Positions 3,144 to 54,587 of a DNA stretch of 54,596 nt are shown here, piece after piece. Source of the stretch: a virus; IMG/VR virus record IMGVR_UViG_3300017719_000011, positions 1 through 54,596 of that record; one strand, given 5' to 3'. Each line of letters opens with the position of its first letter. The first letter of the stretch is position 1. The notes below the pieces were generated by a model that saw only the letters and a program-made list of their open reading frames with translations, was not told where the DNA came from and did no database searches. Position numbers and translations under genes: made by a program.

Positions 3144-4991
3144 ATGGCAAAGATTGTAACTGAAAATTTTAGAATCGAAGCGACAAACGATTTTATCGAT
3201 TCGTTTAGCACCAGTGAAGGTAATCATTACTACATGATGGCCTCTACTACTGCGCAGGAAAATGAAATACAGAATACGCAATTATCAAAAAGAGAATTTC
3301 AAAGAAAGGTTATTTTTGGCAATAAAATAACTGGCGATAATGTCAGACATATGTTTCCTATTAACTCATGGCAGGAAGATGTTGTATACGATGCATATGA
3401 TGATACGAAAGATATGTCTAATTCTAATTTCTATGTTACAGTTTTGACGGGTCAAATCAATCAAGCAAATTATAATGTTTTTAAATGCATAAGAAACAAT
3501 AATAACGCTGTGTCAAAATCTAAACCAGTTCCTCCTTCAAGTGACGATAATCAATTTGAAATAACAATGGATGATGGATATGTATGGAAATATATGTTCG
3601 ATGTGACTCCTTCGGATTATATCTTATACGGAACGAGTAGGTTTCTTCCTTGGACAAGAAATGTAACAGTAGAGCAGCAATCAACAGATGGGTTGTCAGA
3701 TATTATAGTTGAATCAGGCGGGGTAGGATTGTTTTCTGATTATTTGTTTGGCGATTCAGCGGCACCTACTAGGGCAACCCTTTCTACTGTAACACAAGGT
3801 CAGGCATTGGTTGATGGGATCACTGAACAAGCGTATACACTTGATGTTATAGCATCTAGAGCAGTCAAAACTACCATTGATTCGTATGTTAATATGTACT
3901 TGCTTATTGACGGTGCATTATATGATATAACTTCTAGTAATCAAACACCTAATTCAAATGTAAGTCAAATGACAGTTGTTACTGATACAAATTTGAAAGA
4001 TTATGAAGGTCAAGATTGCTATGTGGTCCCTAAAATAATTATAAGTGAACCTAATAATGCTGTTGGTGTTCAAGCACAGGCATACGGGATTGTAAATGAT
4101 CAAGGTGATTTGGTGTCTGTTGCATTCAAAACAAAAGGCTCAGGTTATCATTCAGTAGAGACTTCTATTGCAAAACCAAAGGCATTAGAAGAAGACCCTA
4201 CTGCATTATCAACAGTTGTTCGAGGAATACCATCACCTCAAGGCGGACACGCATCAAACTCTCCCATGGAGTTGTTTATGAGTAGATGTGTCGCTGTCAC
4301 TAGTTTTTATTCTGATGTGAACAATAATGTTCCTGCTGTGAATGATTATACAAAGGTTGGATTGATAAAGAATCCGAAATTTGAAAACATAAACACGGGT
4401 AACGGTACTGTAGCATCACTTACAGTTGACGAGCAATATAGAATTATTGATTCGGGTGCTTCAAATAGTTTATCAGATTGGCAATCGGTTGCAGGTAGTT
4501 CATATACCTCATTTGAGCCGGGCACAATATTCACTGCTATTACCACAGGGTTGGGTTTGAGTAATGCAATATTAGAACCTTTACCTGTCACATTTGATAA
4601 TCGTGTTAAAATTACATTGAATGTCAGAAACACGTCCGTCAACATAGGTGATATATTGACACAGCTTGTTGATGATCAAACTGTTACAGGTGTTGTTCAT
4701 GAAGTCAAATATCCTACTGCTACAAAAACAGAATATTATGTTATAAATTCAGATGGGAATTATAATAAACAATTCCAGTCACCTACAGCACAAAATCCTG
4801 TTGCAAATATAGTTGCTAAGGCAAGTATTGATTCAGCATTTTCATCAACTATCACTTCAACAACTATAAATAATATTGAACAAAAGAAATATAGCACTTA
4901 TTCAGGTGATCTTTTACACTTCGTAGATTTCGAACCCATCACGAGACAAGAAGACACCAAAGAAAAAGTAAAACTTATTTTCGACTTTTAA
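3144..4991 (+). CDS. 8: Baseplate wedge subunit gp8-like
   Basis: 615 residues; AGGAAA at 3130-3135 lies 8 bases before the ATG. The N-terminal third resembles T4 gp8: an opening 'F..' strand, INSWQEDVVYDAYDD (T4 has an RRDWGDTRYPDPY-like segment), YNVFKCIRNNNN (T4: WLVYRCLD), and above all DGYVWKYMFDVTPSD at about residues 143-157 (T4: DGYVWEYLFEIPPDV). The protein ends KVKLIFDF, like the ILFTF end of T4 gp8. T4 gp8 has 334 residues, so about 280 extra residues are present, mostly in the second half. They include a GDLVSVAFKTKGSGY hairpin (about 326-340) and a YRIIDSG...WQSVAG...GTIFTA module (about 430-480) that recurs elsewhere in the window. In T4, gp8 dimers link wedge components in the baseplate. 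The gp8 call is strong for the core; the extra domains are surface insertions by inference. Confidence 0.85.
   Translation: MAKIVTENFRIEATNDFIDSFSTSEGNHYYMMASTTAQENEIQNTQLSKREFQRKVIFGNKITGDNVRHMFPINSWQEDVVYDAYDDTKDMSNSNFYVTVLTGQINQANYNVFKCIRNNNNAVSKSKPVPPSSDDNQFEITMDDGYVWKYMFDVTPSDYILYGTSRFLPWTRNVTVEQQSTDGLSDIIVESGGVGLFSDYLFGDSAAPTRATLSTVTQGQALVDGITEQAYTLDVIASRAVKTTIDSYVNMYLLIDGALYDITSSNQTPNSNVSQMTVVTDTNLKDYEGQDCYVVPKIIISEPNNAVGVQAQAYGIVNDQGDLVSVAFKTKGSGYHSVETSIAKPKALEEDPTALSTVVRGIPSPQGGHASNSPMELFMSRCVAVTSFYSDVNNNVPAVNDYTKVGLIKNPKFENINTGNGTVASLTVDEQYRIIDSGASNSLSDWQSVAGSSYTSFEPGTIFTAITTGLGLSNAILEPLPVTFDNRVKITLNVRNTSVNIGDILTQLVDDQTVTGVVHEVKYPTATKTEYYVINSDGNYNKQFQSPTAQNPVANIVAKASIDSAFSSTITSTTINNIEQKKYSTYSGDLLHFVDFEPITRQEDTKEKVKLIFDF
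4865..4872 (+). promoter_or_regulatory. Possible internal late promoter (TATAAATA) upstream of the DUF4815 gene
   Basis: An exact TATAAATA octamer within the gp8-like coding region, 136 bases before the next ATG. T4 late genes are read from this octamer by the gp33/gp55-modified host polymerase. An 8-base AT-only match is expected a few times by chance in DNA this AT-rich, so the distance to the next gene is the only support. Confidence 0.3.
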
Positions 4992-25800: not shown

Positions 25801-26529
25801 ACACAAATTTTACTTGACCCGGCCGATACAGAAAGTTCAAGACATGTTGTTTATATTGAACCGCCTGAAGGTTTAACCGATTCACAGTTACAAGCACGAA
25901 CAACTCAGTTGTTGTCAATACAATCAGGTGGAGAGATACAAGGTAAAGTTGTATCAATGGAATCCGATAATGTATTGTATAACCCGGACAATCCGGACAA
26001 TGGTAGACAAAGTGTCTCAAGATTTTTGCGACAAGACGTATTCCAATTTAATGTACAACCATTATATCTGTTCTTTGGCATGATGCATGGAAGTCGAATA
26101 AATAATATTATTGTTGAAGAAATCACTGAGAAAGGCAGATCGACACATGTGCCAAATTTCTTAGGGCATAATTTATCGCCAGGATTTGCTGATAAATCTA
26201 ATGTGACTTTAGTGTCTGATTTAAATGTTTCATCGTCAAATGCTCCTAGCAACTTTCAGAGCGAAGACAGATTATCTAGTGCAAATTATGATACTTCAAC
26301 AACGAATCCTGTCAGTACATTAGGTGAAACACTATTTTCATTTTATGTTGGCGAAAATGAATCTGTTAAGTTTGATTTAGATAATATTTTTGGCGCAGAC
26401 AGAAAATTCTTGACTCCAGGATTGTACAACAATAAAGCGATTTACTTTACAGTTGAACCTCTAGAGGGATTAGATGGCAACAACGAAAATGCTAATGTGC
26501 AAATGACTGTTACAACTAAGGAACAATAA
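22846..26529 (+). CDS. Large virion structural protein, second of a tandem paralogous pair
   Basis: 1227 residues; the ATG directly follows the TAG of its paralogue, with GGGAAGA 11 bases upstream. It repeats the paralogue's landmarks in the same order: STLLGVPRAEEQLSLFSDVS (about 84-103), FRYQPGRVSGFTFG (about 362-375), KIEYSWYGAIGAKFYAYIP (about 485-503), GECRWVRMHTL and SSYYIDGGDEGTV (about 558-570). The distance between the second and third landmarks is only about 120 residues, against about 870 in the paralogue. The C-terminal half is different and beta-rich, with SPGRYATKGVLSSVLFKV and a final VQMTVTTKEQ. The stop overlaps the next start (TAATG). The pair probably arose by duplication followed by module gain in one copy. 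Role: virion appendage or tail decoration, inferred. Confidence 0.6.
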   Translation: MPRQVKIGFDKTPSPLVKQFPQLVDIRGTPLFDTAGNPLVTEDGASLASFNNSENSLSSFVANKGRNEFVAVEEQFPNESEVSSTLLGVPRAEEQLSLFSDVSTYGLDRSNWNYYTVSSAGTPSTWYNRKHPTFGNRGPARFYESTDEQALYLKSFPTQYTYPGHPRSSLLNAPDYTSGGPAGYFGKYLKFLALGRWLFEVWKDIDLRFAERNFISDCITFIDSNRDPIPFYGPDGGPNDEPNVWNANTGTFKTQSQWRTVIYTSDENPIQASRKHEEIAMAQIENWSLFYLRIRNDTDSYPIYKYKGYMYEFKTETDLIDPIPGVGPYSLMPAFCDQDNSRPGGSTNNGTTGILESRKSFRYQPGRVSGFTFGLRLKNNLSSNADKIEWGAANQTDQYMFQVSGTKFNIVRRSTLEIPVEVLEDPAGMDLTEQDQTGPEIPPSLDASQPMYTLTIPRDKWNGDPLDGSGPSGHIIKPENVTMYKIEYSWYGAIGAKFYAYIPLGNGECRWVRMHTLILENKLAAPVLANADFKFRYVLNNAVTSNLTEPTYIYKYGSSYYIDGGDEGTVTINSATSPTKLFSSAAIKGAVLGIHPKKKLFNSFGISNSDSAGADASYDGIDNNKKLYPVTLNVHSDNDIKVNIQEITVSPDGHHGSRSVDLSCGSLYSNDSFAKDITFNIIEGKSKISITDDSTNTLSYLDVGAKVIGDGLFNVYTKTINSGTQESEIGRKTRYEFSDQELNDYIKKDGTLIDFSNEATASQVVFSTKLDSFRNIVASDVPISANTFKVHFLNPNSYSGGYFRDFCIGVTPDVPSEMSDENGSFLNFGPAGADGLRVYPTDEPSDPTGVFQIRNTLHEEWTNHSHILDLADGADVAESFVRGPDRFEQDERVRGADLPFAYQISPGRYATKGVLSSVLFKVRTTGYSIESIDQLNIPADFAADSYRVVFTNGSQNFPPIEDKTIRVAEVGVGDVSTGYVYASKPTQILLDPADTESSRHVVYIEPPEGLTDSQLQARTTQLLSIQSGGEIQGKVVSMESDNVLYNPDNPDNGRQSVSRFLRQDVFQFNVQPLYLFFGMMHGSRINNIIVEEITEKGRSTHVPNFLGHNLSPGFADKSNVTLVSDLNVSSSNAPSNFQSEDRLSSANYDTSTTNPVSTLGETLFSFYVGENESVKFDLDNIFGADRKFLTPGLYNNKAIYFTVEPLEGLDGNNENANVQMTVTTKEQ

Positions 26530-29500
26530 TGGCAATCTTTACAGGTCTTAATTTAGGATTTTATTTAGGTGATGTTAATAACCTAAAGGATTCGCTGTCC
26601 AACCTCGGTTTAGAGTATGATGACTTAGACAGAATTCGTGGGTTAAGTAACCTTATCACTAGAAGACAGCTTCATCTACTTTCAAATCTGGATCGTGATT
26701 ATGAAAAGGCTCACTACAGCAATAGAGTTTGTGCTGAATTTATAAATGGGTATTTGACAGAAATACCCGATGCATCAGAAGGATTATTATCAAACTTGCG
26801 ACTTGATCATCAACTTCGTGCAAGTATGATCAAATATAATTATCTAACGTATAATGCAACAGCAAACGAAGATCAAATAAAAAGCGCCGACATTTCTACG
26901 AGTCGTATTTCATCATGGTCACAAGTTGTAAATCCTGGTCCTGTATTTTATGGCGCTGACGTAAAGATTAACCCATCAAATGCTGCTGGGACATCATATG
27001 GCGATAGTGCCAAGAGTGTTGTTAAAGCGGATACAATAACTTTATTGGGCGGAGTTACTCCCAGAAGATTTGATGCTGAGGTTGCGACTCACGAAGTTGA
27101 AGTCAAAGTCAATGGAGTAACTAGAAAATTATTTGCTATGCGTAACATACCATTGTCGTTTGATGGCAATTTCGCATCTGCATCTTTTAAATACAAAATA
27201 AATCCAAAGAATCCTGTGATTCGACCCGCTGTAGTGTTTGTTGATACTGATCAACGAGATCCTACGGACGAGGGCATAGCTTATTTCGGGTCAGGAACAA
27301 CTAGCTCATTGCAAACAGCATCACACAGCAGTAAAGCAAGTAGTAAGCGAACCGATCTTTATTATCCACCAAATGACATATTCGAATTACAAATAGCACC
27401 TACAGGACTTTCAAAATTTCCAAGTGCTGTTTTGAATAAGTTAAGGGCAGTCACATTTACAAGTAATATTGTTCCCGAGATGCCAGATTTTTTTGCTATG
27501 AATGGGGGCAATGAGGGTAACACATTAAGTTTAAAAACAGTTGATGCATCAGGCAATCAGTTTAAATCAACTTCTTCTAGACCTAAACCCAATGCAAAAA
27601 GACAAGTTCTAAGATTGCCTTATACTATAGAAACATTAAATATAAACGCATGTTTCCAAGATAGCTCACAAATGGATTTGAGCAAACTTAAAGATTCTGT
27701 TGTCGTTAGGTTTAACACTCCTTATGTGTCAGGCGGTAATTTAATAACTAATCAAGATAGTTCGGGGAACGCAACTCCTCACGGATTCGTTGATAATGAA
27801 TTAGTATTATATGAAGGTTCATCATTTTCGGGTTTAACTGACGGACAAAAATATTACGTTCGACTCAATGATGCAAACAGTTTCCGCATTTCAGAATCTT
27901 CAGGTGGTGGCGCAATATCACTTAGTTCATCGAACAATGAGTTCAATTTTATAACAAAACTTCGTGATTCAAATCTAAAAGTATTCAATCAGAGTGTTTA
28001 CCAAGGAAATTTGGGCAATAGGATGACTGCAAATGGGGCAAGTCCTATAGTTAATCCGGAAAAGATTGAAACATATAACATCTATGATCAAAATTATACC
28101 TCATTGCATTCGAGCGTTCAAACATCTAAAACTATACAGAATGTGACTATAAACTCTAGCAATGTGGGAGGAACAATAACACTTCCTAATGAAGATGCCA
28201 ATGGTGTTGTGGGTAATCATCCTATTAAAAAATGGAATGCAAGCGCTAGCCCATCAAAGATAGTTAATATGTCAGGAAAGAAATTCTTGAAAGAGTATTA
28301 TCATACTGATAGTGGAAGCGCTAATCCAAGTGGCGGAATTGAAGGGTATTTTTCAGGATGCTTGTCATTAGAATCATTACACCTCGAATCAACTAATGTT
28401 ACAGGAAGGATTAATGTTGTTATTGCAGGACTACCTTCTCTCAAATCAGCTAGATTGAAATCAACTAGGTTCTCTGGGCGCATGTCAGAAAGCACGTTTG
28501 CAGGAACCACTGCGCTTACAGTGTTTGAGTATAGTGGCGGCGATGCTAATTTTACTGATAGCGGCGGCACAACACTTCAATTAGACTCTGAAAATAACTT
28601 CTTTGACAACAATTTTGAAATTGAAGAAAACGAAATTGATGAGTCCACTCTAAACATAGGCGATGCATTTTACGGTGGGTTTTATGCAGGAAAAATGATT
28701 GATACGCAGGTCGTTCCTAACAAAGAATATTTCTTAATTGTTGCAGATAAAAGTCAAGAGCAGTTGATGGCACGATATTCTGTTATGAATGATCATGATG
28801 GGTCAAGAACAGTAAATACTATGACAGGAAACGGCTGGGTTAATACAGAAAGTGAAATAGTCGGAGGTTCTAGTTATTCTGCCGCAAACTTTACTGACAG
28901 TTTAAATACTGGCGGGTTTAATGATTGGTATTTGCCGGCAAGAGACGAACTTGAGCAGATGTATCGTCTTTTAAAGCCTTCAAGCGAGAATAATGATACC
29001 GGACACCCTGTTCCAAATATTAATTCATCACCCACATTCAATGCTTCATATTCATCAACTAATCCTAGTAGAACATCTGCGGCTGCTTTCACATCTGGAA
29101 ATGCTCAGGCATTTGATGATTCATCATCGACACAACATTTAGGTGGCGGAACATGGACACCCATAGATGTTCCTGCCAGCAATGTTACCGATACTGGTGC
29201 AACGGTGTCTGTTACACAAGATTCTGATGGCGCCGCTGGGGTATCAAAAACTGTAACCTTGCAACCCGGCGTTTACGATTTTTCTGTCGCTGTATCCACT
29301 AATCAATTAGTCGTGCCATCAGGAAGTTTTGCAGTAGGACAAGATTACAAAATTACCAATGTAGGCACATCGCCATCTACATTGTCTAATGTAGCATATT
29401 CTGCAGTTAACTTTACAGGTAACTACATCACTAAAGGCAGTCATGGTTATTTGACGGGTCAAGCAGTAGATTTTTCATACGACTCAGGCGGCAATACACT

Positions 29501-31088
29501 AATAAACAATTTAGTTGATGGTGACACTTACTACATTATCAGAGAAACAGCAGGAAGAATCAAATTAGCATCTAGTTACGCTGATGCAGTTGCGCTTAAT
29601 GCTCTTGATTTAGAACCTGAATCATTAGCAACAACTTATGTTGTCAGCGGTGCGGCTTCAGGATCTGGTTACACATTCACAGGCGAATCAGGAAATAATC
29701 CTACACTTTCTGTAGTTGATGGTGAAGTTGTAACAATTGATAATACGGCACATGATGCCAGTCATCCGATACAAGTTCAAGACTCTTCAGGAAATATTGT
29801 TGGTCAAGGTGCTTCGTTCTCATTTACAGCATCATCTGCTAATGCACCTTACACGTATGTTTGTCAAATTCATAGTTCTATGAACGGGTCAATTAGTGTT
29901 GCTGCTAGAAGCGTAACCTTTGATATTACATATAACAGAAATGCTACATGGAATGAAGTTGGTGTTGTCGGTACCGCAACGTCAGGCACAGTATTTACCG
30001 CAGCGACTGACGGATCTATTATACCTTCAGGCGGTGCAACATTATCGTTATCTGAAAACCAAGAAGAAGTTTTAGTTAAAGTAAATGATGGTGATGCAGA
30101 CGCAATCTCGCAAACAGTGACCACAGAAAATGATACTGTAACAGGAACAATGTACTTACACACTGCAGGTGATGTTGTAGTGTCAGCGCAATCAGCAAAT
30201 CTTAATTTTTCTCTTTCTAGTATTTCGCTTGTAAATCGTTCTGCATATTATTGGTCATCAACAAGTGATAATGTTGTTAATGGTTATGCGCAAAACTTTA
30301 AAACTGGTGAACAAAACATAGATTTATTAAATCACCCATATTTAGTTAGACCTGTGAGAAGGTTATATAGGACAATAGCGGGTGCGGCGACAGAGATTCA
30401 AGGTACATCTGCAACATTGAATGGCCTACGATCATTAACCAGTTTCTTCCTAAAGGGTAAAGGTAATAGTGTAGGTAAAACAAATAATATTAGAGGAAAG
30501 ATGCCTAATATTTCAGGATTGACATCACTAACAACTGTTGAGATACAAAATACAGAATTAGGTGGTTTAATTCCGACATTCCCAGCATCTGGTAACTTAT
30601 CGTCAATGAATTTAGCGAAAAACAGATTTACAGGTGATCTTGCAATCAGAGGTCCTTCATTATCAACAGTTGATGTATCTAACAATCAATTGACATCGTT
30701 TAGTTCTTGTAGCGCACCAAATTTGAAAAAATTAACTGCTTCAAATAACTTATTTGGTGGGACCCTGCCTGATTTTAGTGGTTGTACTAAGTTACAAAGT
30801 GTTTATATAAATGATTGTACATTCACTGAATATTTGTCAGGATTATCAACCGCAACATCATTGGTTATATTACAATTAAAGAACAACAATTTGAGTGCAG
30901 GTGCCGCTGAAAGATTGCTTAGAGATATGTTAGCAAACTATGAAGCTGCGAATCGAGGCGGTGTACAAATTAACTTAAAAGGTAACGCTAAAATATCTCA
31001 AGCAGATTTATTAAGTAACCCAGCGTTAAGAGATATAATTAATACGTTAAGAAAAAATGCAAAATGGAAAATAGAATTAAACCCATAG
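26529..31088 (+). CDS. Mosaic adhesin: leucine-rich repeats, lectin-like domain and cupredoxin-like insert
   Basis: 1519 residues; AAGGA 6 bases before the ATG. Residues 1-250 are a docking region (SSWSQVVNPGPVFYGADV; FAMRNIPLSFDGNF). An HG...YYV module sits at about 417-470. Leucine-rich repeats appear at about 600-675 (LESLHLESTNVTGRI, LKSARLKSTRFSGRM) and again at about 1295-1480 with seven repeats such as LKKLTASNNLFGGTLPDFS. Between them is a domain of the DUF1566/C-type-lectin kind: GGFNDWYLPARDELEQMYR (about 793-811), NPSRTSAAAFTSGNAQAF, then YYWSST (about 1240) and YLVRPVRRL. In relatives the last two segments are adjacent; here about 370 residues intervene. These contain a split YKITNVG/WNEVGVVGTA/FTA module, a second HG...YYI module and a cupredoxin-like segment (His1079, Cys1112, His1115, Met1118). 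Probably a receptor-binding or decorating protein; activity is unknown. Confidence 0.65.
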   Translation: MAIFTGLNLGFYLGDVNNLKDSLSNLGLEYDDLDRIRGLSNLITRRQLHLLSNLDRDYEKAHYSNRVCAEFINGYLTEIPDASEGLLSNLRLDHQLRASMIKYNYLTYNATANEDQIKSADISTSRISSWSQVVNPGPVFYGADVKINPSNAAGTSYGDSAKSVVKADTITLLGGVTPRRFDAEVATHEVEVKVNGVTRKLFAMRNIPLSFDGNFASASFKYKINPKNPVIRPAVVFVDTDQRDPTDEGIAYFGSGTTSSLQTASHSSKASSKRTDLYYPPNDIFELQIAPTGLSKFPSAVLNKLRAVTFTSNIVPEMPDFFAMNGGNEGNTLSLKTVDASGNQFKSTSSRPKPNAKRQVLRLPYTIETLNINACFQDSSQMDLSKLKDSVVVRFNTPYVSGGNLITNQDSSGNATPHGFVDNELVLYEGSSFSGLTDGQKYYVRLNDANSFRISESSGGGAISLSSSNNEFNFITKLRDSNLKVFNQSVYQGNLGNRMTANGASPIVNPEKIETYNIYDQNYTSLHSSVQTSKTIQNVTINSSNVGGTITLPNEDANGVVGNHPIKKWNASASPSKIVNMSGKKFLKEYYHTDSGSANPSGGIEGYFSGCLSLESLHLESTNVTGRINVVIAGLPSLKSARLKSTRFSGRMSESTFAGTTALTVFEYSGGDANFTDSGGTTLQLDSENNFFDNNFEIEENEIDESTLNIGDAFYGGFYAGKMIDTQVVPNKEYFLIVADKSQEQLMARYSVMNDHDGSRTVNTMTGNGWVNTESEIVGGSSYSAANFTDSLNTGGFNDWYLPARDELEQMYRLLKPSSENNDTGHPVPNINSSPTFNASYSSTNPSRTSAAAFTSGNAQAFDDSSSTQHLGGGTWTPIDVPASNVTDTGATVSVTQDSDGAAGVSKTVTLQPGVYDFSVAVSTNQLVVPSGSFAVGQDYKITNVGTSPSTLSNVAYSAVNFTGNYITKGSHGYLTGQAVDFSYDSGGNTLINNLVDGDTYYIIRETAGRIKLASSYADAVALNALDLEPESLATTYVVSGAASGSGYTFTGESGNNPTLSVVDGEVVTIDNTAHDASHPIQVQDSSGNIVGQGASFSFTASSANAPYTYVCQIHSSMNGSISVAARSVTFDITYNRNATWNEVGVVGTATSGTVFTAATDGSIIPSGGATLSLSENQEEVLVKVNDGDADAISQTVTTENDTVTGTMYLHTAGDVVVSAQSANLNFSLSSISLVNRSAYYWSSTSDNVVNGYAQNFKTGEQNIDLLNHPYLVRPVRRLYRTIAGAATEIQGTSATLNGLRSLTSFFLKGKGNSVGKTNNIRGKMPNISGLTSLTTVEIQNTELGGLIPTFPASGNLSSMNLAKNRFTGDLAIRGPSLSTVDVSNNQLTSFSSCSAPNLKKLTASNNLFGGTLPDFSGCTKLQSVYINDCTFTEYLSGLSTATSLVILQLKNNNLSAGAAERLLRDMLANYEAANRGGVQINLKGNAKISQADLLSNPALRDIINTLRKNAKWKIELNP
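29640..29912 (+). other. Cupredoxin-like domain with full type 1 copper-ligand set
   Basis: Encoded within the mosaic protein, residues about 1038-1128. The pattern NPTLSVVDGEVVTIDN, SHPI, a following GASFSFTA strand, YTYVCQIHSSMNG and SISV matches the plastocyanin-like fold, in which the copper ligands are the His of the HP segment and the C..H..M of the last loop. All four are present: His1079, Cys1112, His1115 and Met1118. Copper binding is inferred; the same fold in phage structural proteins may only be a stable beta domain. Confidence 0.6.
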
Positions 31089-41000: not shown

Positions 41001-42247
41001 CAAATAGTTTAAATCGTCCATCAAACTATGTCGATGCTGTTAATATATTAAGAGAGAAAAGATCATATATTGAAGAAAGTGTTATTAGTGATATAAATTC
41101 AGCGATACAAACGGATAGCAATAATCCTTCAGGTACATGGTATCAGTTTACGTATGATGAAAACAAATGTCGTAGAGATTTGGGTTATTTGATTGATGCA
41201 TTGTGCTATGACCTTATGTATAATAACAATGCAGGATTGATTAGAGCAGCAAATAGTTATCGTGTTGATGGCACACTTCAATTAGGAAACACAACAAATC
41301 AAACAATTGAAGCATATGATGTATTTTTAAGAAATGCTGTTCTTTTTCAACTTAACACGCTATCAAATGTAAATTCAATTATTAATTTTGATCACACAGA
41401 CATTGCAGATCAAGAAACTGTAACTTCAAATAGTCATGGGTTCAACACAGGTGATAGTGTCGTGTACACTGAAGTATCAGGCGGCACGATGCCCGGTTTA
41501 CAAAACGGTGACACATTGTTTGTAATTAGGGTTGATGATGATACCTTTAAACTAGCAAGTTCTTTAAAGAATGCGTTAGCATCACAGGAACTTCAATTAG
41601 TTCCTACTACTATGGGTGATTTCCGTGTAACTGGTGGCATTAATACAACAGTGTCTGAATCTATTACCGAGATTGTTGCATTTATTACTGCGGGATCACA
41701 TGCCCTTCCAGAATTAGCACCGTTAAAGACGACTAATGATTCTGGAGCAACACATTCTACTCTTGTTCCTGGATTTGTTGTTGCAAGTTCCTTGATAGCT
41801 GACAACAAAGCAGAAGTGCAAAATACTGCAGGTCAAGGTATAGACATATATAGAATTAATCCACTTGAAACAATAACAACAAATTATGTCACAAATGCAA
41901 ACATTGATTTTAAAAAGCGTAGTTTGATTGCTGCTAGTTCGATGACGTTTGAATACGTAGGGACAGGTACAGAAATTCAAGGATTAACTGACGGTGGTGC
42001 AGGCACAGATGATTTATACAATACACCACGAAATGATGACTTCCCAAAAACAGAAAATGAAGTCATACAAGATTCAACAACAAACTTAGGCGCTGTTTAT
42101 TTCACATCGACAGATCACAAAGGTGATTTCAGAATCGGAACTGAAATGAACATAAATAGAACTGCAGGTAGAATTGAAGGAGATGCGTTTAATAGATCGC
42201 TATTCTCTGTCATGACACCATACATATTAGCAATCGAAGGCAACTAA
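38054..42247 (+). CDS. Large multi-domain fibre/spike protein with internal duplication
   Basis: 1397 residues. The N-terminus STIKLKRSSIQGKRP, LDLGEIAINTHDGKMFMRRD is a docking domain shared with the preceding fibre. Residues about 190-420 look like a beta-helix: TTIFVKSGTYELDNT, LVPKNVSIVGDNLRTTKVKG, YLTNMTFIGMQASLG, GGTGVHILNRGYAQLVSIFT. This is the 'expanding tableau' start of pectate-lyase-like spikes. Three HG...YYV...FKLA modules lie at about 116-195, 800-875 and 1125-1185. A two-part block is present twice: part A (TKCSRDVGIIVNAV at 438; TKCQRDVGLIVDAV at 880) and part B (TYDQTKCERDVKYIIDAL at 582; TYDENKCRRDLGYLIDAL at 1033), with alignable spacer sequence between. The C-terminus RKSLIA... 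FKKRSLIAASSMTFEYVGTG and IGTEMNINRTAGRIEG is typical of marine fibre-like proteins. Adhesion is inferred. Confidence 0.7.
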   Translation: MSTIKLKRSSIQGKRPIVSNDITNELDLGEIAINTHDGKMFMRRDEGGNVSLHEVGNPGETRNVLYVSLSGKLGNSGKSLADAVDTIDKALELATPVTVSIVFANIDVSTSSFLSVGHPFVTGDALTYSRGVGGSWASLVDEQTYYVRKLFDHPTSDHMFQLYETEAAAFEGNPANAKSLDPATPSGTNHTLTRKTEQTTIFVKSGTYELDNTPRSGAPMGGLLVPKNVSIVGDNLRTTKVKGKIAGNDLFYVQNASYLTNMTFIGMQASLGVNPRPPAAASFPPIALQEGQVPQVISTSPYVENCTAFNTTATGMLIDGSLTRGLRSMVSDSFTQINAGGTGVHILNRGYAQLVSIFTVSCEHAVLCESGGQCSLTNSNASFGTFGLKATGASENLYSGITTDNAEPFGEYFEVSSPSSPKYGDAFYVEGVSRKLVTKCSRDVGIIVNAVANDLVLNTNYNSSYAGIAYQRADALPSGQVSPTAAALSETKRLVGELSNVQAHGASKATLDANFDSIINIINNGTVSTSEPGDSVVPALTLNNTLGRATKYVDGAGLLVDNRSALATHLQSNIAATNPGLTYDQTKCERDVKYIIDALSYDLIYGGNSATRTAAKSYFVGAVSELPTQAQKDATATAYTALANFVEDVVTGNAPNPDYGLTASFVFNYTGHSDVALEAKNLVLIIQSVIEDDDLGGLPTEILPDFSAASDTTKKDIRTQIISAERDLRLGTTDFVVANTDIGTNAHYSIESFKSSINFTEKDYNGYDLLQITDIPNNVSVANSTISGLQRTLTDDAGNVDSSLNIGHGLVQGQPVRYNVSVGGTPIPGLTAGQVYYVVYVDDETIKLATNPEATAIETLSSASGTGTHTFTPKFFYNATKCQRDVGLIVDAVADDVLLNTNFNSIYTGVSYQRASAYATVTNTDQKNPTLSSMLDVKRQLTQIDDVNEASVNAIKSSIDRVVGIFLNGTGTGESVLDKLLFPNSLNRPSNYVDAVNILREKRSYIEESVISDINSAIQTDSNNPSGTWYQFTYDENKCRRDLGYLIDALCYDLMYNNNAGLIRAANSYRVDGTLQLGNTTNQTIEAYDVFLRNAVLFQLNTLSNVNSIINFDHTDIADQETVTSNSHGFNTGDSVVYTEVSGGTMPGLQNGDTLFVIRVDDDTFKLASSLKNALASQELQLVPTTMGDFRVTGGINTTVSESITEIVAFITAGSHALPELAPLKTTNDSGATHSTLVPGFVVASSLIADNKAEVQNTAGQGIDIYRINPLETITTNYVTNANIDFKKRSLIAASSMTFEYVGTGTEIQGLTDGGAGTDDLYNTPRNDDFPKTENEVIQDSTTNLGAVYFTSTDHKGDFRIGTEMNINRTAGRIEGDAFNRSLFSVMTPYILAIEGN
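39365..39930 (+). repeat. Internal duplication, copy 1 (A-B block)
   Basis: Encodes part A (TKCSRDVGIIVNAV, LNTNYNSSYAGIAYQRA), an alignable spacer with LVGELSNVQ and NNTLGRATKYVDG, and part B (TYDQTKCERDVKYIIDAL, YGGNSATRTAAKSYFVG). Copy 2 lies at 40691-41285 in the same gene. Similarity is at protein level. Confidence 0.75.
40691..41285 (+). repeat. Internal duplication, copy 2 (A-B block)
   Basis: Encodes part A (TKCQRDVGLIVDAV, LNTNFNSIYTGVSYQRA), spacer with LDVKRQLTQIDDVN and PNSLNRPSNYVDAVN, and part B (TYDENKCRRDLGYLIDAL, YNNNAGLIRAANSYRVDG). An HG...YYV module lies between the two copies, at about 40455-40680. Confidence 0.75.
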
Positions 42248-52633: not shown

Positions 52634-53587
52634 ATGGCACAGCCAACAACTAAAAAAGAATTCAAAGAATGGTGCCTCAGGAAACTAGGTAAACCAGTCA
52701 TTGAGATTAATGTTGACCAGGATCAAGTTGATGATCGTGTTGAAGAGGCATTGTCTTATTATTGGGATTATCATTTCGATGGTGCTGAAAGAATTTATTA
52801 CAAACACGAATTGAAAGGATCTTACCTTACTGTTGCAGATGCGACAGGTTTTGCTGTTGACGATACTGTAACAGGCGCAACAAGTGGCGCTGAAGCAAAA
52901 ATCATTTCAATTGAAGGTAACAATATTTACTACAAAGATTTGATTGATAGTGATGTGCCATTTCAATCAGGTGAAGATGTAACAAGCACAAGTCAAAGCA
53001 CGCAAACTGCAATCAGTTCAATATACAAAGGATTGCATGAAGCAGGTTATATCACAATGCCTGAAAACATCATTGGAGCAGTTAAGGTTTTCGAGTTAGG
53101 ATCTAACATCACTGCAGGTTCAGGTATGTTTAATGTTCAATACCAATTTGTTCTAAATAACTTACATGATATTGTCAACTATAATTTAACACACTTTTAC
53201 ATGTCAATGCAAAACCTGCAATTTATGGAAGAGCTTCTAGTTGGCATGACACCTATAAGATACAACAGACATGTGAACAAGTTGTATTTAGACACAAAGC
53301 ATGATCGGTTAGCGATAGGAAAATTTGTCGCAGTCGAGGCTTACAAAATCGTTGATCCTGAAGTTTATCAAGATGTTTACAAAGATCGATGGTTACAGAA
53401 TTATGCATCAGCGAAGATCAAGTATCAATGGGGTTCAAACCTCACTAAATTTAATGGCATGACATTACCCGGTAATGTGCAGTTTAACGGCGAACAAATT
53501 TTAAACGATGCTAGAGAGGAAATACAACGGTTGGAAGAGGATATGATTACTTCATACTCTTTGCCCGTTATGGACATGATAGGATAG
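52634..53587 (+). CDS. 13: Neck protein gp13-like (head completion)
   Basis: 317 residues (T4 gp13: 309); GGAG 6 bases before the ATG. The N-terminus KEFKEWCLRKLGKPVIEINV, DQVDDRVEEALSYYWDYHFDG matches T4 gp13 ([32 protein letters not shown]). The C-terminus DRWLQNYASAKIKYQWG, MTLPGNVQFNGEQILNDARE matches RWVKDYATALAKELNG and MMLPGGVTIDGQRLIEEAR. Residues about 66-130 hold a beta insertion (TGFAVDDTVTGATSGAEAKI, GNNIYYKDL, FQSGEDVTS) that I do not see in T4. In T4, gp13 and gp14 form the neck that closes the filled head and accepts the tail. Regulated with gp14 and gp15 from the late promoter at 52053. Assignment is confident. Confidence 0.92.
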   Translation: MAQPTTKKEFKEWCLRKLGKPVIEINVDQDQVDDRVEEALSYYWDYHFDGAERIYYKHELKGSYLTVADATGFAVDDTVTGATSGAEAKIISIEGNNIYYKDLIDSDVPFQSGEDVTSTSQSTQTAISSIYKGLHEAGYITMPENIIGAVKVFELGSNITAGSGMFNVQYQFVLNNLHDIVNYNLTHFYMSMQNLQFMEELLVGMTPIRYNRHVNKLYLDTKHDRLAIGKFVAVEAYKIVDPEVYQDVYKDRWLQNYASAKIKYQWGSNLTKFNGMTLPGNVQFNGEQILNDAREEIQRLEEDMITSYSLPVMDMIG

Positions 53588-53591
53588 CGTC

Positions 53592-54587
53592 ATGGCTAAA
53601 AATTATTATTTCGAAAATTTTGAAAACTCGATGGAGCAGTCTCTTGTTGAAGACCTTGTTATCGAGTCGATTAAAATTTTCGGGGTTGATTGTTATTACA
53701 TACCCAGAGTAACACAAACAAAAGTTCCTGCGCCAAGAGAAACAGCGAATGCTGTTATCGCTCCTGATAACATTACAGGTGGGGAGATCACAGGCGTCAC
53801 ATTTTTGAACAGAGGGTTCGGATATCTTTCTGTGCCAACAATAACAATCGGCGATCCTGCATCTGGAACAACAGCAACTGCAGAGGTTAATCTTACAAAC
53901 GGTGTAGTTTCTGGCGTGACTATTACAGATGGCGGCTCGGGTTATGATGTTAATAATCTGCCGTCTGCTGACATTCAAGAGGTTACAGAAACTAATGTAG
54001 GGCAACTCGCTTATATTGATAGTGGATACGATGATCTTTTAAATGAGGATTCGCTTCCGTCATATAATTCATCATATGAAGTTGAGATGTATGTTAAAAA
54101 TGTTGATGGGTTTGAGGGTGAAGGTGATTTCTTATCAAAATTTGGTTTACAGATACGTGATTCAATGACTTTGACAGTTGCGATGAGAACCTGGGAAGAA
54201 GAAGTGGCGTTCAATGTTGAAGATGAACGTGTGAGACCTTTAGAGGGTGATCTAATATTCTTCCCGCTAAATAAAAAGATATTTAAGATTATGCATGTTG
54301 AACACGAAGCAATATTCTATCAAATGGGATCATTACAATCATATGATCTTAAATGTGAACTATTTGAATACAGCAACGAAAGATTTGACACAGGTATTAG
54401 TGAAATTGATGACTTGTATGACAGATACAAAACAGTCGTTTCAAACACTGACAATAAACTAGAAGATGCTGTTGACATTGTGACACAAGATGTAGGTGAA
54501 AACGCTGATAACTTTGTTATAGAAAATACAGGTGATAACATCCTTGACTTTAGTGAAGGCAATCCATTTGGGGAGAAATTCTGGTAA
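53592..54587 (+). CDS. 14: Neck protein gp14-like (head completion)
   Basis: 331 residues (T4 gp14: 256); AGGA 8 bases before the ATG. The core matches T4 gp14: LVIESIKIFGVDCYYIPR (T4: LVAESIQMRGVECYYVPR), FLSKFGLQIRDSMTLTV (T4: FFSNFGMQVQDEVTLSI), EGDLIFFPLNKKIFKIMHVE with FYQMGSLQ (T4: [26 protein letters not shown]), and a final NPFGEKFW. Residues about 56-132 are an insertion of a beta-hairpin pair (GGEITGVTFLNRGFGYLSVP, TITIG, GVVSGVTITDGGSGY) that accounts for most of the extra length. It probably points outward from the neck ring. The stop overlaps the start of the next gene. In T4, gp14 is part of the neck/connector complex. Confidence 0.92.
   Translation: MAKNYYFENFENSMEQSLVEDLVIESIKIFGVDCYYIPRVTQTKVPAPRETANAVIAPDNITGGEITGVTFLNRGFGYLSVPTITIGDPASGTTATAEVNLTNGVVSGVTITDGGSGYDVNNLPSADIQEVTETNVGQLAYIDSGYDDLLNEDSLPSYNSSYEVEMYVKNVDGFEGEGDFLSKFGLQIRDSMTLTVAMRTWEEEVAFNVEDERVRPLEGDLIFFPLNKKIFKIMHVEHEAIFYQMGSLQSYDLKCELFEYSNERFDTGISEIDDLYDRYKTVVSNTDNKLEDAVDIVTQDVGENADNFVIENTGDNILDFSEGNPFGEKFW

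Follow-up and report, generated by a model that had tools for sequence, protein, structure and literature searches.

Gene and genomic setting

The window analysed here is a virus record of 54,596 bases without annotation, a fragment from which most of the phage genome is absent. It was affiliated with the T4-like marine phages through matches of its open reading frames (ORFs) to T4-like proteins. ORFs 375 and 3144 match baseplate wedge subunits, the product of ORF 10761 matches tail-fibre families, and a protein of 1856 aa belonging to phrog_358 occupies the place of the vrlC-like protein of Sinorhizobium phage phiM12. ORF 52634 encodes the neck protein gp13 (phrog_211, best match the DLP6 neck protein) and ORF 53592 the neck protein gp14, for which the T4_neck-protein profile scored above its cut-off. 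The gene under study is a single open frame between the gp8/vrlC-like gene and gp13, and its product carries leucine-rich repeats (LRRs).

26529 to 31088, + strand: whole gene, predicted virion/tail-fibre protein of 1519 aa
27378 to 28538, + strand: N-terminal LRR-like units (aa ~284-670), with gaps, from a motif scan
27726 to 27953, + strand: first copy of the HG module (aa ~400-475), situated among LRR-like units
30426 to 30968, + strand: C-terminal LRR block (aa ~1300-1480), from Pfam LRR_1 and the motif scan

The same gene order is found in phiM12, where a putative tail fibre gene stands between the vrlC-like gene and gp13, and since the present gene lies in that interval a virion-fibre role for its product is likely by position. 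The initial annotation called the protein an adhesin, a putative description that draws on domain types and gene position. Its motif positions agree with those found here (GGFYAGK at aa 716, GGFNDWYLP at 795, NPSRTSAAAF at 845, YKITNVG at 940, HG at 971-972, TWNEVG at 1140, SAYYWSST at 1238 and LVRPVRR at 1272). LRRs do flank the lectin-like domain, as it had proposed (LRR_1 scored 22.9 bits in the C-terminal block against a cut-off of 20.6), but their extent was understated, with further LRR-like units at ~284-345 and ~536 and a second HG module, beyond the one that it had recorded, at ~405-475. Searches of phages by tblastn with the LRR and N-terminal parts gave no match.

A lectin-like domain split by an insert

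The central feature of the protein is an Lcl_C/DUF1566 domain in two separated parts.

28650 to 29123, + strand: Lcl_C/DUF1566 lectin-like domain, first part (aa 708-865)
29124 to 30239, + strand: in-frame insert of 372 aa (aa 866-1237), absent from relatives
30240 to 30368, + strand: Lcl_C/DUF1566 domain, second part (aa 1238-1280)

A profile was built from 86 IMG/VR relatives of 188-212 aa, none with an insertion and with the window excluded. The first part matched profile positions 4-158 with 136 bits, and the second, tested alone, positions 157-198 with 24 bits. When the insert was excised at the optimal cut (864-867/1236-1239) the two became a single match of 174.8 bits across positions 4-198. 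With Pfam Lcl_C the joined halves gave one stretch of 43.5 bits, against 27.3 and 19.9 for the halves alone, and the intact protein scored 35.7 bits with PF07603, above the curated cut-off of 34.9 bits. Contiguous proteins of Pseudomonas phages could also be aligned with the joined halves over their full length. The separation of about 370 residues first noticed between the NPSRTSAAAF and YYWSST halves thus measures 372.

Because searching with the joined sequence might bias the hits towards contiguous copies, the search was repeated with the first half only. All 80 unique copies selected in this way were contiguous and none was split, as had been asserted of the relatives at this point. In 79 of the 80 the domain ends 25 aa or less from the C-terminus; that of the window protein is both non-contiguous and non-C-terminal, its second part ending at ~1280 of 1519. 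Searches of bacterial and archaeal genomes found 70 DUF1566 loci. Apparent splits among the bacterial ones were mostly tandem arrangements of independent domains, every one having a second part of its own nearby, and were set aside. Many of the bacterial and archaeal copies are without profile positions ~108-153, the stretch directly ahead of the insertion point, from which it follows that the insertion site adjoins a length-variable loop.

Residues 700-1296 were modelled by AlphaFold2 from an alignment of 57 rows. A MAFFT alignment with all relatives had put YWSST at about 868-871, which was judged a misplacement. The rows used were picked to keep the alignment supported by the profile, a choice that presumes the split, so that the model is not fully independent of it. 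Residues 700-865 have pLDDT values mostly of 80-95 (68 in the lowest 10-residue block) and residues 1240-1279 of ~94, with the insert mostly below 50. In Foldseek searches each part separately matched Lcl or DUF1566 structures; the second superposed on the C-terminal domain of Legionella Lcl (8q4e) over 40 aa with an rmsd of 0.6 A, and in a viral structure library one match covered 119 columns with an rmsd of 2.3 A and several DUF1566 proteins were matched too. Both halves are thus placed at high confidence within one model, and their packing into one fold may be inferred from pLDDT. Taken together, the profiles, the unsplit relatives and the AlphaFold confidence strongly support a DUF1566 domain interrupted by a 372-aa in-frame insert.

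Modules within the insert

The insert is itself composed of several recognisable segments.

29148 to 29303, + strand: possible beta-sandwich (jelly-roll-like), first half (aa 874-925), tentative, from the joined DUF5013 match
29322 to 29387, + strand: YxI module, first half (aa ~932-953), from excision tests
29391 to 29678, + strand: HG module copy 2 (aa ~955-1050)
29679 to 29903, + strand: cupredoxin domain (aa ~1051-1125)
29943 to 30017, + strand: YxI module, second half (aa ~1139-1163), from excision tests
30054 to 30230, + strand: possible beta-sandwich, second half (aa 1176-1234), tentative, from the joined DUF5013 match

HG module copy 2 (pLDDT mostly 72-87) and the cupredoxin (about 77-93) were modelled as two separate domains. 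The latter matched amicyanin and rusticyanin with a Foldseek probability of 1.00 and has H1079, C1112, H1115 and M1118 as candidate copper ligands; the Cys and His are kept in 53 of 55 related copies of the motif. Pfam Copper-bind reached 19.5 bits at best, below its cut-off of 21.2, and the domain is a putative copper binder. An assignment of the HG module to E1_FCCH was not adopted, a window copy at 41366-41623 scoring 22.7 bits against a cut-off of 29.5. HG is directly followed by a cupredoxin in tail-region proteins of phage S-H9-1 (QPB08160) and of three IMG/VR records (L091, L092 and L093) as well. In these proteins neither DUF1566 nor LRRs were recognised, and the cassette, unlike that of the window protein, lies outside any lectin. 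Since the pair is joined in other marine phages it is treated as one cassette rather than as another level of insertion, and HG and cupredoxin probably travel together. In the cupredoxins of L092 and L093 (YISQLDSNM) the Cys and His ligands are gone, and there the domain may persist without copper.

This cassette would account for an interruption of ~186 residues in the YxI module. Unbroken copies of the module were found in three window ORFs (375, 3144 and 42572), with a weak fourth in 49130, which agrees with the original remark that the other copies in the window are contiguous. Rejoining 954 to 1140 gave 15.3 bits with a profile of three copies, for which none of 13,255 excisions made in the other proteins of the window was reported with the HMMER filters on; with a four-copy profile the score was again 15.3 bits, the cut lying close to the first. 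A provisional 47-aa YxI-like query matched phage sequence at no better than E=5 and was discarded.

It could be argued that the lectin loop received just a single-level insertion, a linear string of small modules in which the YxI "halves" are a chance resemblance. The YxI cut was searched over hundreds of choices, and both YxI segments have pLDDT below about 50 in both AlphaFold2 models. One excision in an unrelated S-H9-1 phage protein reached 16.4 bits, above the YxI score; it was, however, the only one of 39,483 random excisions to reach 15.3 bits with the four-copy profile, and contiguous copies of the module are present in other proteins of the same phage. A single-level insertion is accordingly regarded as somewhat unlikely. 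That the YxI module is split is moderately supported by these scores, which are good but not decisive; the split by about 190 residues first described thus stands on its excision score and gains nothing from the structural models. Of the insertion levels, the first is firm and the second moderate.

A further level, absent from that earlier account, is only suggested by sequence. The segments flanking the YxI module, when joined, gave a weak DUF5013 match (E=3.8e-4, or 6.1e-3 with a slightly different cut, the cut point being set by eye), whereas the halves alone, the halves in swapped order and a joined sequence with a scrambled second half gave no match. Their pLDDT is mostly below 50. The YxI module might therefore lie within a split beta-sandwich.

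Origin of the split

Two other explanations concern the split lectin itself. In one, the halves are two truncated DUF1566 copies left by duplication, one lacking its C-terminal part and the other an isolated tail of 42 aa. Tandem DUF1566 domains exist in bacterial relatives, and AFDDSSST, encoded at the left edge of the insert, is similar to AYYWSST at its right edge. The DNA at these edges, 29109-29128 and 30243-30262 (GCATTTGATGATTCATCATC and GCATATTATTGGTCATCAAC), is identical at 14 of 20 positions, a level that ~1% of random pairs reach and that was one among nine comparisons made. The lectin halves nevertheless meet at profile positions 157/158, with hardly any position shared or missing, and both have high pLDDT within one model, so that duplication appears improbable. 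An assembly artefact fusing different phage tail genes is highly improbable: the protein comes from a metagenomic contig and a second contig with its architecture was not found, but all junctions are in frame inside one ORF of 1519 aa and restore complementary flanks, gene GC varies between 0.34 and 0.44 without a sharp step, and no repeat of at least 20 nt joins the insert edges. DNA repeats were looked for at the edges of the inner insertions too and none was found, the outermost level having its weak similarity only. In IMG/VR, queries with the whole protein, the lectin region, the YxI module and the beta-sandwich found no relative, and the architecture, shared by no other contig, is known from this one.

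Retroelement context and possible diversification of virion proteins

The second part of the lectin (aa 1238-1280) occupies the position equivalent to the variable region of relatives that carry diversity-generating retroelements (DGRs). Three contiguous relatives have a downstream repeat whose mismatches with the variable region are nearly all at template adenines (19/20, 7/8 and 15/15). Within the 54.6-kb window, outside which most of the genome lies, no second copy or template of the variable region was found, and no reverse transcriptase was identified among the listed ORFs. A reverse transcriptase is encoded close to the DUF1566 gene of Pseudomonas phage Cruim01 (L002, 3677-4837), and no template repeat turned up when 3400-3700 was searched without gaps.

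Two neck proteins of the same phage contain inserts relative to DLP6 and phiM12, with 51-59% identity over the aligned parts. In gp13 an in-frame insert of ~70 aa (aa 66-135; window 52829-53038) is absent from both homologues, to which the identity over 246 aligned aa is 59% and 53% respectively. In gp14 the in-frame insert is of ~92-102 aa (window ~53754-54029) and has GITGVT/GYxxxPTITI-like repeats, a part that matches baseplate and tail fibre families. As gp13 and gp14 also carry such inserts, in-frame insertion of modules is suggested to be frequent in this phage and a habit of its lineage. A broader proposal is that the lineage diversifies its virion proteins by inserting small beta modules in frame, one after another, into loops that tolerate them, with the loop beside the lectin's DGR-variable face used in place of point hypermutation, cassettes nested there and gp13 and gp14 treated likewise. 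This is speculative and, as a whole, unlikely. The general scheme for stacking domains advanced in the initial annotation is unproven, the architecture being shared by no relative.

Proposed architecture and comparison with known systems

The reading that we favour, and hold to be probable, is that of a marine T4-like phage receptor-binding protein in which an LRR scaffold carries a lectin whose loop bears a nested insert. The product would be a virion protein, most likely a receptor-binding protein of the tail-fibre region, with receptor binding presumed from this context. Its LRR scaffold would bear one Lcl_C/DUF1566 C-type-lectin-like domain, of which the length-variable loop, just before the stretch hypervariable in relatives that carry DGRs, took up the 372-aa insert in frame, presumably by recombination. 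The insert would be nested in turn, the HG-cupredoxin cassette having opened the YxI module, perhaps within a split beta-sandwich. Folding of the lectin should be preserved and the insert would project from the loop, giving several binding surfaces on one protein. If this is true, a lectin family known for targeted point mutation also tolerates insertion of whole domains beside its variable face. New binding specificity in phage attachment proteins could then arise by a second route, one open to test, and nested insertion would have a clear example beyond cellular enzymes.

DUF1566 is the commonest target domain of DGRs (PMC6642488), and the DUF1566 target proteins of phage DGRs (PMC6642488, PMC4159848) are the closest sequence relatives of the window lectin. 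Those targets are contiguous and 79/80 C-terminal, whereas the window copy is split and has its variable-region equivalent at aa ~1240-1280 of 1519. The C-terminal domain of Legionella Lcl (8q4e, PF07603; PMC11162425) is a C-type-lectin-like adhesin domain of the same family, and its fold is that of the second part. It is contiguous and trimeric, lies C-terminal to a collagen-like stalk and binds glycosaminoglycans; the window lectin is split and flanked by LRRs. Domain shuffling in phage proteins is well studied (PMC10684548). Nested domain insertion has been documented to a depth of five in Si3 of cyanobacterial rpoC2 (PMC13114784), following the same recursive A1-B1-C-B2-A2 domain-in-domain scheme, but the examples in that study are cellular enzymes and the present one is an adhesin-like phage protein. 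Nested insertion as such is thus already known; the novelty lies in the domain that hosts it, in the order of nesting and in its occurrence in a phage.
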